Of a stretch of 64,000 nt of DNA, positions 59,301 through 61,028 are shown in pieces. Each line of letters opens with the position of its first letter. The stretch's first letter is position 1. The translations under genes and the position numbers were made by a program. The notes beneath the pieces are model-generated. The model ran no database searches. It saw nothing but the letters and a program-made list of their open reading frames with translations, and was not told the origin of the DNA. Origin of the DNA: Amphibalanus amphitrite (Eukaryota; Arthropoda; Thecostraca; Balanomorpha; Balanidae); the NCBI RefSeq assembly GCF_019059575.1, contig NW_024881540.1, forward strand, positions 310,001-374,000, written 5' to 3'.

Positions 59301-61028
59301 TTTCGTGTCGGTTGAAGGTTTGCATGCTCGGGGAGGTGGGCAACTCGTTTTTACCGTAGGCTTTACAGTTTTCGTCCCTTCTCAGTGGTGGAATAGCAAA
59401 CGCCTCCGTCGTGCTATTTCTTTTGTGTGCTGATTTTTTTCCTTTTGACGTTTGCTATTTTCCGTGTATCTGAAGAAGCCAAAGTAAAAGTTAATTGAAG
59501 ATCAATTTGTTACGAAGACTGATTAATTTTCTCTCCATTAAATGTTATTGTAGTTAACCCGCGCCCGGCTGGGGGTCCTGGATTTCCACGCCCTGCTGGG
59601 GGGGGGGGGGATGGTGTTTGAACACCCCCCCCCCCTTCTAACTCGGCTCCTGGGCCACGTAGCGATACGCGGAAGGCGGCGTTCGAAAGAGCGTCAAAAA
59701 TAATGACGAAATCACTTCGGTCAATTTTTTGGTCAGGTCAAAGGTCAGGTCACCAGAGGTCATTGAAGGCAAAATTTCGCCGATTTCCAGGTCGAATGTC
59801 GACAATTTCCAAGAAGCCCACGCATAACTCGGGAACCAATAGAGCTACAGCGCCGCGGAAAAGCGCAATCGATAGCCCTATTAACGCCCTTTCTGAGTAA
59901 TCGTCTCAGATTTGACCTAACGTCAACGGTTTTGCCTGCAGGGGGCAAAAACTGCAAAAATAACCGATTTTTTTCGGAAACAGTTTTTCTGCAATAACTT
60001 TTGACCCGAACCTTGTACGAGCTTACTGTTACCGGCATCGTGTTCCTCTCGTCAAGACGCATCGAATGAACTATAACTTGACCTTGAAAGGTCAACTTGA
60101 AAATTTGACCTCAGGTCAAGGTCATGACCTGACCGGAAAGGGTCATGTTGCATATCAGTCGATCCGTATCGTCGAGCTGAACACATCTAAGGCGTTTTCA
60201 TCGCTCTAGCATGCCTCTATCAAAAGTTATTTGCGAAAAACTGTTAGATACCATTCGTGACCTAAGATGACCTCAGGGCATAAACAGGGGTCACGGACAC
60301 CATTTTCATGTTCAGTGTGTCTAAACCACTTGTAATTCAGTGTTTGGGAGTGTTTATAATGTCTTTCGTCCAAAAGAGGCGCATTTCAACTTTCTCCCAT
60401 TGACCTATAATGGGGAGGTCGCAAAATTGACCTGACCTTAGGTCATCGATATCAAAATTCTGAGATATACATTTTGTACATGCTATTGCTCTTAGCAATC
60501 GCTGAAAGTTTCAAAGCGATCGGTCACTCGGTGTAGCTATGACAGACATTGAAACTTTTTATGAGGTGAGGTCACTTCAAGTGACCTGGTGACCTGACCT
60601 TGAATGACCTTGGTCTGAAATTTTCACAACATGTGTAGAATTGATGTATGATAAGGTGTACCAAAAACGGCGGCGCGGAGCGCCGCCGTTTTTGAGATAT
60701 TCGCGAAAAACCACAAGGGGGGGGTGTTCAAACACCCCTCCCCCCCAGCAGGGCGCGGGTTAAGGGAGGAAGGGGTTTGGCTGTGTGTACAGTGCCGAAA
60801 ATATTCGGTGCATTTGTTACTGAGTGACACGGACAGCGCAGCACACCATTGGCTGATTGTTTCGGCTGGCTGGCGGTGTCCTGGGCCCGTCGGCGGCGGG
60901 CTCTCGGTCACTGTGTCTGTGCCGCTGCTGGAGGCGGTGGTGGTGGGACGCCGCGGCCGGTCCGCTGCGGTCCGGCCGGCCTGACCGGTGCTGTCCTCTC
61001 TCGTCTTCCAGGTCGGTACAGGTACTGA
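44378..61028 (+). CDS. tra2: Transformer-2 (Tra2 beta-like) SR-type splicing factor, complete
   Basis: Seven exons join in phase: 44378-44392, 56534-56625, 56776-56887, 57086-57214, 57842-58017, 58572-58834 and 61012-61028 (TGA 61026). Total 804 bases, 267 residues. Exon 1 gives MSDRE. Residues ~6-73 form the first RS region ([21 protein letters not shown]). The RRM spans ~79-158: RNP2 LGVFGLS and RNP1 RGFAFVYF. The linker [25 protein letters not shown] signature is specific to Tra2. The second RS region is rich in Gly, Arg, Asp and Tyr and ends [20 protein letters not shown] and, after the last junction, RYRY. Tra2 binds GAA-rich exonic enhancers and in insects acts in sex-specific dsx splicing. 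Reading through the exon-6 donor (GTGAGA) would instead end in EN-stop at 58843, a possible retained-intron isoform. Intron 1 is 12 kb of nested transposons; the last intron holds element F. Confidence 0.95.
44818..46616. mobile_element. Foldback element with 8-bp target duplication
   Basis: Target duplication CTCCCGTT at 44810-44817 and 46617-46624. Inverted ends begin GGTATCGGTAACCCTGGCG and run ~130 bases before giving way to a minisatellite of GACTCA-based 10-13 base units. The left half reads GACTCA, the right half its complement TGAGTC, with the switch near 45710. The whole 1.8 kb is thus a giant inverted repeat in tra2 intron 1. It carries no protein. Confidence 0.93.
47623..48257. mobile_element. 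hAT-like MITE, 8-bp target duplication
   Basis: CAGATGAC at 47615-47622 and again at 48258-48265 flank inverted ends CAGAGTTGGCC / GGCCAACTCTG. Interior near both ends is built of CGTAACGTAGCGTA-like subterminal repeats. 635 bp, no transposase. The 8-bp duplication and CAG start fit the hAT superfamily. Confidence 0.9.
49489..50149. mobile_element. Harbinger-like element with TTA target duplication
   Basis: TTA at 49486-49488 and 50150-50152 flank CGGAGCGAGCGA and its inverse TCGCTCGCTCCG. Inside are a six-fold GGCC run (49548-49572) and two ~125-base tandem units (from ~49850 to 50100) with CACGTGCGCACGTGCAGG and ATCTCGAGAACGGCT. No transposase. A three-base TWA duplication fits PIF/Harbinger. 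Confidence 0.72.
51109..53680 (-). pseudogene. Non-LTR retrotransposon reverse transcriptase, 5'-truncated, with element D inside
   Basis: Minus-strand frames 53680-53073 and ~53110-52368 read RT motifs: [54 protein letters not shown], then after a gap [27 protein letters not shown] and NYCCLIWG. The YADD/FADD catalytic box expected between them is missing, deleted together with a frameshift at ~53075-53100, so the enzyme is dead. The final ~20 codons, to a stop at 51109, lie beyond element D and are in frame with the upstream part once D plus one TTAA is set aside. Jockey/CR1-like; exact clade not assigned. The 5' truncation is typical of LINEs. Confidence 0.9.
51170..52367. mobile_element. 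Element D: TTAA-flanked AGGTCA-rich element inside the LINE
   Basis: TTAA at 51170-51173 and 52364-52367. Left terminus CCTTCGCCCTGGTGGGG. The right side carries the same sequence inverted (~52320-52337) plus an extra outer CACACCAGGGCGCGGG block. The interior shares GACTCCGTTCGACGTTTATC and the GGTCATGACCTTGACCTGAGG core with element A. Confidence 0.9.
54247..55448. mobile_element. Element E: TTAA-flanked AGGTCA-rich element
   Basis: TTAA at 54247-54250 and 55445-55448, 1202 bp, near-identical to C and F. Ends contain GGGTGTTTGAACACCC hairpins framed by long G and C runs. Near the right end is the stem CGGCGGCGC-TCC-GCGCCGCCG (55352-55372). It lies in tra2 intron 1 inside the large hAT-like element. 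Confidence 0.93.
58068..58286 (+). repeat. CT microsatellite grading into CTCTCG hexamers, tra2 intron 5
   Basis: About 130 bases of pure CT are followed by ~85 bases of GCTCTC hexamers. It is pyrimidine-rich on the coding strand and sits ~290 bases before the exon-6 acceptor at 58571. Predicted Ser/Leu frames are artefacts. Confidence 0.95.
59554..60763. mobile_element. Element F: TTAA-flanked AGGTCA-rich element in the last tra2 intron
   Basis: TTAA at 59554-59557 and 60760-60763, 1210 bp. By eye it holds about 20 AGGTCA/TGACCT hexamers, three TCAAGGTCA-type extended half-sites, one AGGTCATGACCT and one TGACCTCAGGTCA. The stem near the right end has loop GGA (60677-60679), the inverse of that in E. 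It ends ~250 bases upstream of the final tra2 exon. Confidence 0.93.

Follow-up and report, generated by a model that had tools for sequence, protein, structure and literature searches.

The piggyBac transposon of Trichoplusia ni (PDB 6x67/6x68) is among the closest described systems for six TTAA elements, A to F, that lie in 64,000 nucleotides of the barnacle Amphibalanus amphitrite (contig NW_024881540.1, positions 310,001 to 374,000; hereafter the window) and that are filled with the hexamer AGGTCA or its complement TGACCT. The functional ends of the T. ni element are 35 and 63 bp and include a 19-bp palindrome for the C-terminal cysteine-rich zinc domain (CRD) of its transposase (PMC7351741). 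As described there, the CRD recognises a palindrome that has TGACG half-sites and lies close to the ends, TGACGCATG being the site and TGACGTACG a cryptic look-alike, and a third CRD site doubles activity while a 5-bp insertion costs about 50% of it (PMC7351741). The barnacle elements and their autonomous relatives share with T. ni piggyBac the TTAA target, asymmetric and in part CCC-type ends, the predicted transposase fold and the C-terminal zinc pattern, but differ in having arms of ~500-700 bp with hexamer clusters every ~170 bp.

Subterminal arrays of short words are also known from Ac/Ds, Spm/En and similar elements, where many copies of a short transposase word lie in both orientations near both ends; these belong to other superfamilies, and we know of no ~170 bp ruler in their arrays. 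The piggyBat element of Myotis (PDB 9c0f) likewise carries repeated short motifs beyond its tip, namely GCGGGA and imperfect palindromes in the first 120 bp from the left end (PMC11707139), but has a different CRD fold and a different motif, and the array-bearing transposases of the barnacle match 6x67 better. The coral CMITE elements are also TTAA miniature inverted-repeat transposable elements (MITEs), with an interior of unexplained origin that is better kept than the ends, but they are ~100 bp long with one conserved 75-bp core, and AGGTCA is absent from the main text of the report (PMC2872659). Genome-wide spread of nuclear-receptor half-sites by a mobile element has been described for Alu repeats, short interspersed elements that contain 90% of 108,582 human direct-repeat-2 (DR2) elements, several of which recruit retinoic acid receptors (PMC1785376). 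The Alu sites were mostly made by CpG decay (PMC1785376), whereas here each DNA transposon of the window holds 11-25 preserved exact half-sites.

No report of AGGTCA arrays in piggyBac elements was found among the open-licence PubMed Central matches listed, which is weak evidence of absence. New here are an identified piggyBac lineage with long clustered arms and the scale on which its arrays have spread through the genome. We take the six elements to be non-autonomous piggyBacs in which the hexamers are cis-acting transposition sites, read at a nucleosome-like spacing by the CRD of their own transposase, and assign this reading a probability of roughly 0.55. The original prediction, made from the letters of the window, had recognised a TTAA mobile-element family and read its hexamers as nuclear-receptor sites. 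The first part was borne out by the TTAA ends and by a piggyBac parent for element D, and the second is weighed below.

Six TTAA elements in the window

The elements were delimited as follows.

17963..18993, plus strand: element A, 1031 bp, 23 hexamers in 5 clusters, TTAA at both ends
36254..37137, plus strand: element B, 884 bp, 11 hexamers in 4 clusters, left border TTGA, right border TTAA
39012..40217, minus strand: element C, 1206 bp, 20 hexamers in 6 clusters, F family
51170..52367, plus strand: element D, 1198 bp, 25 hexamers in 6 clusters, derived by internal deletion from an autonomous piggyBac of 4.7 kb, as judged by alignment
54247..55448, minus strand: element E, 1202 bp, 21 hexamers in 6 clusters, F family
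59554..60763, minus strand: element F, 1210 bp, 22 hexamers in 6 clusters, TTAA at both ends

TTAA borders, G/C-run terminal hairpins and a common subterminal word had been ascribed to all six. TTAA was found at both ends of A, C, D, E and F (the start of A being moved from 17964 to 17963) and of both full autonomous copies described below, with TTGA at the left of B as the exception. A hairpin-pattern search found the hairpins at both ends of A, D, E and F, at one end of C and at neither end of B, and the exact word GGTTTTTCGC occurs in A, B, C, E and F, with GGTTTTTCAG in its place in D. The flanks of A match a paralogous empty copy within the window (42390-42520, with TGAA at the insertion point), as do the flanks of C (40698-40897, with TTTA).

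C, E and F form one family, 94-97% identical, to which A and D align at ~66-71% identity over part of their length. A and D are 87% identical to each other over 287 bp, and B gave no blastn match to the other five at an E-value of 1e-4 or less. The terminal bases are CCTTC (left) and CCCGC (right) in D, CCCGC in C, E and F, CACGC in A, and CACTC (left) and CCCTC (right) in B. Published piggyBac terminal motifs are CC[C/T]T (PMC2872659) or CACTA, CCCTC, CCCTT and CCCAT (PMC10813416); the left end of D and the right end of B fit them, and the ends of C, E, F and A, the right end of D and the left end of B differ. The elements are short (884-1210 bp) and non-coding as MITEs are, with derivation from an autonomous parent traced for D only. 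No open frame of at least 150 amino acids lies wholly inside any element, and three enter from outside, at B, D and F. Membership of Kolobok or the T2-MITEs, described as having TTAA followed by purine first bases (RR, AG/AGG; PMC6004289), was ruled out because the ends of all six elements begin with CC or CA.

Element F holds 13 AGGTCA and 9 TGACCT, or 22 hexamers in 1210 bp, whereas 200 shuffles that preserve dinucleotides averaged 0.59 and never exceeded 3. This comparison with shuffled sequence had been proposed as a check and confirms the excess for F, in line with the predicted count of about 20 where fewer than one would arise by chance. The interiors of the elements are also as full of the two words as had been claimed, with 11-25 per element, far beyond chance; 122 of the 145 occurrences in the window lie inside the six elements (6.73 kb) and 23 in the other 57.3 kb, densities of 18.1 and 0.40 per kb, respectively.

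An autonomous parent for element D

A search of the 807,550,619-base assembly (2644 contigs) with the PF13843 profile gave at least 116 scored matches, ten of which were read with their surroundings. Downstream of the transposase at locus L153 lies sequence that matches the right part of D at 99.3% identity, and full copies of the same element, each bounded by TTAA, were located at L160 (2288-7019, 4732 bp) and, reverse-complemented, at L161 (2147-6869, 4723 bp). Positions 1-517 of D are 98.3% identical to the left end of this parent and positions 516-1198 (683 bp) are 99.3-99.6% identical to its right end, the joint in D retaining the first ~516 bp and the last ~683 bp of the parent. As judged from these alignments, D is an internal-deletion derivative of the 4.7 kb autonomous piggyBac. 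The three parent copies agree pairwise at 99.79-99.95% over 4.1-4.7 kb; the L153 copy has no left end, and its match to L160 and L161 starts immediately before the fourth left cluster. The transposase frame has 666 codons from stop to stop and 645 from the first ATG. A 188-bp direct duplication (L153 ~1300-1674) lies just 5' of the frame in all three copies.

Hexamers are dense in both arms of the parent (20.0 and 19.5 per kb) compared with 0.9 per kb over the transposase. The arms, of ~500-700 bp, have four clusters each, centred at 171, 332, 495 and 659 bp from the left end and at 194, 362, 534 and 701 bp from the right end, or one cluster per ~165-170 bp, and one of the two arm arrays lies 5' of the transposase gene. 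The arrays of D are thus the arms of an autonomous piggyBac, which is a simpler reason for their presence than a receptor grammar. A piggyBac lineage with long, evenly clustered arms probably explains the arrays of D and, by relation, those of the remaining elements. A, C, E and F align to the parent of D at ~66-86% identity over part of their length, while B had no match to it in the filtered list of matches; all five are taken to come from related parents.

Spacing of the clusters

The internal features of F illustrate the arrangement.

60717..60746, strand not assigned: G/C-run terminal hairpin, simple side
60569..60610: cluster 1, five hexamers, first from the simple end
60401..60445: cluster 2, four hexamers
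60258..60273: cluster 3, two hexamers
60224..60230, minus strand: ATAACT[CT] box facing cluster 4 from the opposite side
60079..60130: cluster 4, six hexamers, within the central palindrome
59994..60000, plus strand: ATAACT[CT] box ~110 bp before the centre of cluster 4
59913..59918: cluster 5, one hexamer
59824..59830, plus strand: ATAACT[CT] box before cluster 5
59735..59762: cluster 6, four hexamers
59598..59635, strand not assigned: G/C-run terminal hairpin, side with the duplicated terminal word

With the element ends counted, cluster steps are 155-196 bp in all six elements, and the evenness of the clusters in A, B, D and F was reached by no more than 1 in 20,000 random placements for each, in tests that are not independent as the elements are related. 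A 200 kb sample was assembled from twenty 10 kb stretches at one fixed place per large contig, and hence not strictly at random. It contained 23 arrays, in nine of the twenty stretches, to which were added eight from loci chosen by GGTTTTTCGC (the first places on one contig). In the resulting 31 arrays, whose definition excluded steps above 260 bp, 79 of the 92 cluster steps were 140-210 bp with a median of 172.

Counting the copies in the window, 38 of 44 examples of an oriented box, ATAACT[CT], lie 88-128 bp ahead of a cluster centre, and many clusters are without a box. Among control words the reversed box was found at 0.36 per kb inside and 0.28 outside and TACATA[CT] at 0.12 inside and 0.45 outside. 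A third word meant as a control, ATCAAT[CT], was itself enriched (0.67 versus 0.34 per kb, with 15 of 18 at 48-54 bp) and belongs to the module families. Forty box-defined modules reduced to 15 representatives at less than 70% identity, and a directional module of ~172 bp recurs. At a finer scale, the starts of same-strand half-sites differed by multiples of 5 bp in 143 of 359 pairs. Elsewhere in the window (49851-50096) are two copies of a 128-bp unit with the word ATCTCGAGAACGG, which resembles the box of the elements, and without AGGTCA.

A median step close to the nucleosome repeat and a second oriented box could also reflect a host protein that is not a receptor but associates with chromatin or DNA and uses the clusters to position nucleosomes or to keep the element silent or open. 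This is an unlikely explanation, as it does not account for the occurrence of arrays in only one transposase clade of those read, the exclusion of steps above 260 bp lessens what the spacing can say for it, and we know of no non-receptor chromatin protein for the AGGTCA word. The strong palindrome of the central module, which as RNA folds with z = -4.65 (60020-60200, minus strand), raises a further explanation, that the half-sites act as base-paired hairpin stems in RNA or single-stranded DNA. For eleven of the 78 predicted pairs both bases differ in one or more of seven sequences, but the covariation term of +3.6 gives no net support and most clusters are outside the central palindrome, which makes such a role highly improbable.

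Preservation of the hexamer

The hexamer was kept while the rest of the elements diverged to ~60% identity. Alignment columns within the hexamers of F are 92% identical in D compared with 58% elsewhere, and 16 of the 22 hexamers are kept whole compared with 10% of other hexamers. The corresponding figures for F and A are 16 of 21 aligned hexamers (22 in all) and 13%. When the hexamers were masked before alignment, 12 of 22 (F and D) and 13 of 22 (F and A) were still kept; shifting positions in the masked alignments gave mean kept fractions of 0.10 and 0.15 and maxima of 0.38 and 0.44 (148 shifts). Simulated neutral drift of F to 58-61% identity left a mean of 1.4-1.6 sites and at most 7 (2000 runs each), against the 23 and 25 hexamers that A and D actually hold. 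Faster decay of the half-sites than of the rest of the element had been named as an outcome that would refute the receptor-site prediction, and the half-sites are instead the better kept part. The alignment of B to F is poor and 2 of 17 aligned F sites are kept; B shares density and spacing with the others but not individual sites.

The word is also sharply defined. The non-redundant set of A, B, D and F contains the exact hexamer 81 times, against 1.7 predicted from its frequency elsewhere in the window, while the fifteen one-mismatch neighbours at positions 2-6 total 30 against 27.3 expected. The position-1 variant GGGTCA was found 12 times against 1.3 expected. The bases flanking the hexamer are nearly free, with T directly 5' under-used (35 of 325 distinct contexts).

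It had been cautioned that the motif density may stem from an ancestral satellite, and the recurring ~172 bp module and the steps in multiples of 5 bp, which could arise by slippage, are features that functionless remains of a satellite might show. Nearly free flanks beside a sharp hexamer disfavour this origin, neighbours at background level imply few decayed sites, and drift would have left far fewer sites than A and D contain. We regard it as very improbable.

Transposases with and without arrays

The transposases of L153 and L155 match PF13843 (DDE_Tnp_1_7) at 1e-59 and 2.4e-69, respectively, are 37% identical to each other and form one clade (100/100) among the ten transposases read. L155 has hexamers at 477-1411 and 3711-4110, around a frame at 1647-3671. 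By comparison, 0, 3, 3 and 1 hexamers were counted in the 2.8-3.6 kb of four further autonomous piggyBacs for which both ends could be located, and L152, L154, L156 and L157, judged in the fetched 5.5 kb only, have 3, 6, 5 and 4 scattered hexamers. An array beside L158 (4342-4865) lies outside the ends of the L158 element (1336-4335).

The array-bearing transposases also resemble the T. ni enzyme in the domain of interest. For L153 and L155 the match to T. ni piggyBac extends across the CRD (1.2e-56 and 2.2e-78, respectively), and by sequence L153 appears to align with the catalytic part of 6x67 as well. L150 and L156, the two compared of the eight array-less transposases, in contrast match piggyBat better and their T. 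ni match stops before the CRD. The zinc pattern C..C-C..C-C..H-C..C was present in both array types and in none of the other eight, six of which fit another zinc pattern and two of which (L151 and L157) fit neither. An AlphaFold model of the L153 protein from 18 sequences had a mean predicted local distance difference test (pLDDT) score of 75.9, with CRD blocks at 66-84, and a structure search with this predicted model returned 6x67 first and piggyBat second.

Many piggyBac transposases in the genome have intact frames and occur in sets of equal scores, such as nine at 258.7 bits, and several piggyBac lineages look recently active in this one genome. Both ends of L149, L150, L151 and L158 begin CCCATTAG or CCCATTAA, with no arrays inside these elements.

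Comparison with nuclear-receptor sites

AGGTCA is the textbook nuclear-receptor half-site, GGGTCA is the usual receptor variant, some receptors accept AGTTCA, and direct repeats spaced by four bases (DR4) are a receptor spacing. It is therefore possible, though we hold it to be the less probable account, that one or more host nuclear receptors bind the half-sites, that the element thereby opens chromatin, drives its transposase in particular cells or both, and that its copies spread the sites. The arrays fit the RGGTCA half-site of nuclear-receptor response elements, as the change of A to G at position 1 was clearly tolerated in the 31 arrays (GGGTCA 48 against 10.4 expected) with C and T near background there. 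DR4 was a joint-commonest direct-repeat spacing, one arm array of the parent of D stands 5' of the transposase gene, and the Alu DR2 elements provide a precedent (PMC1785376).

The grammar beyond the half-site was less favourable. Direct repeats, the palindrome, the everted repeat and extended sites all occur as predicted, but they are mixed and no single dimer spacing dominates. A one-base overlap was as common as DR4 (49 distinct contexts each), and two receptors are unable to occupy overlapping half-sites together. Neither a specific dimer spacing nor a known 5' extension of receptor response elements was found to characterise the 399 array sites, where the ROR/HR3-type extension preceded 4, AA 37 and TCA 50, the last also being produced by abutting half-sites. 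At 46 isolated sites the base just 5' showed no preference (A14 C8 G11 T13) and the second base 5' was biased (T22 A13 C11 G0), a bias that to our knowledge matches none of the known receptor extensions. AGTTCA was not enriched in the 31 arrays (10 against 9.3 expected). The presence of arrays tracks the transposase clade in the ten read, and the parent of D has arrays in both arms rather than on the promoter side alone. The claim that binding grammars of EcR/USP, HR3, FTZ-F1 and ERR-type receptors organise the arrays was therefore not upheld.

Extent of the arrays in the genome

Genome-wide, GGTTTTTCGC has 22,089 occurrences compared with 1,212 for the reversed word. In the 200 kb sample AGGTCA occurred 454 times and was the fifth commonest hexamer, the median of 180 anagram classes being 81. 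The sample extrapolates to ~93,000 arrays in the genome (Poisson 95% 59,000-139,000) and to ~1.8 million hexamers (bootstrap 1.05-2.73 million).

Elements were also sought by their ends (TTAAC..., a G-run and a matching right end 400-2600 bp off) in the window, the eight chosen loci and the sample, with a pattern that requires G-runs and leaves elements of other form unrepresented. All 15 elements returned had 8-25 hexamers and none was below 1009 bp; five were elements of the window. Fourteen measured 1009-1210 bp and fell into two groups (1009-1031 and 1178-1210 bp) about one module apart, and the other, L148, was 2233 bp with 8 hexamers and dubious ends.

In viral contigs a loose hexamer pattern matched at least 120 stretches, with highest two-strand counts within 1.2 kb, among the matches listed, of 13 (L024) and 9 (L088), and blastn of the six elements against these stretches gave no match at an E-value of 1e-3 or less among the matches listed. 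Two specific patterns gave no matches, and the phage collection gave none.

The arrays as proposed transposition sites

Under our preferred reading the hexamers would be cis-acting sites that the element needs for movement, and their reader would be its own transposase, acting through the CRD. The spacing suggests that each cluster may sit in the linker between nucleosomes, where several transposase molecules could be gathered per arm. Extending the work on T. ni piggyBac, this clade would have multiplied its CRD sites with TGACCT as the half-site at a spacing of about one nucleosome. AGGTCA is here more likely read by the element's own enzyme than by a hormone receptor, though receptors may meet it too.

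Several observations weigh against this proposal. The putative CRD site is drawn by analogy; the T. ni site and TGACCT overlap in the four bases TGAC only; and the first cluster is ~160-195 bp inside the ends here compared with functional ends of 35 and 63 bp in T. ni. Nucleosome placement has spacing as its one line of evidence. GGGTCA is well tolerated, which fits a nuclear receptor, and AGGTCG is in excess in the 31 arrays (24 against 6.6 expected). The ruler, checked in 15 elements (L148 left out and B, missed by the end pattern, put in), is broken by four: L130_5782 and L135_216, of one family, lack any exact hexamer over the first ~670 bp, L130_2223 shows a gap of 520 bp and L133 is missing its first cluster. 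Arrays on both arms are therefore not universal. With two members the clustering of array-bearing transposases is weak (45 of 500 shuffles as low), the ten transposases read come from at least 116 matches and only two had arrays, and the ends of L155 are uncertain. It may also be that selection worked on the autonomous parents and not on the short copies.

A broader and more tentative proposal is that one piggyBac clade exchanged a short CRD palindrome at its tips for long arms that place an AGGTCA CRD half-site in each linker between nucleosomes, with transposase gathering along the chromatin instead of on naked ends. The spread of this clade would have placed AGGTCA among the most frequent words in a crustacean genome, leaving well over 1 million sites for host receptors to compete for, ignore or use. 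If true, a cut-and-paste transposon can build ends matched to chromatin, in a system where the parent, the zinc domain and the word are all defined. A genome would also have been flooded with hormone-receptor half-sites for reasons unrelated to hormones, which would matter for motif-based readings of ecdysteroid or retinoid-type regulation in barnacle-type animals.

Neighbouring genes and other repeats

Exons of a tra2-like gene encoding an RRM were found at 57089-57214 and 57827-58015 (plus strand), with F located 3' of both, and a Med23 exon at ~21686-22714 (minus strand). In protein comparisons the Med23 exon gave no match above 45%, a CLK kinase was 69% identical to the protein listed for A. 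amphitrite and 66% to that of Pollicipes, and two A. amphitrite records matched the transposase at 98% identity across 51% of its length. The remains of a reverse-transcriptase gene (52234-53684, minus strand) include PF00078 in the frame 53073-53684, with D on the downstream side. Adjoining B, the region 37208-38391 is an inverted repeat of 11-bp CGACGTCGG-type units with arms (37255-37360 and 38213-38318) that are 92% complementary and outer arms that begin CCCAGTAAACATG, and is probably another structured mobile element. At 44959-46470, ~76 copies of the 10-bp unit GACTCAGACC precede ~78 of GAGTCTGTCT; the units of these two long arrays look like the two strands of a single unit in a giant inverted satellite.

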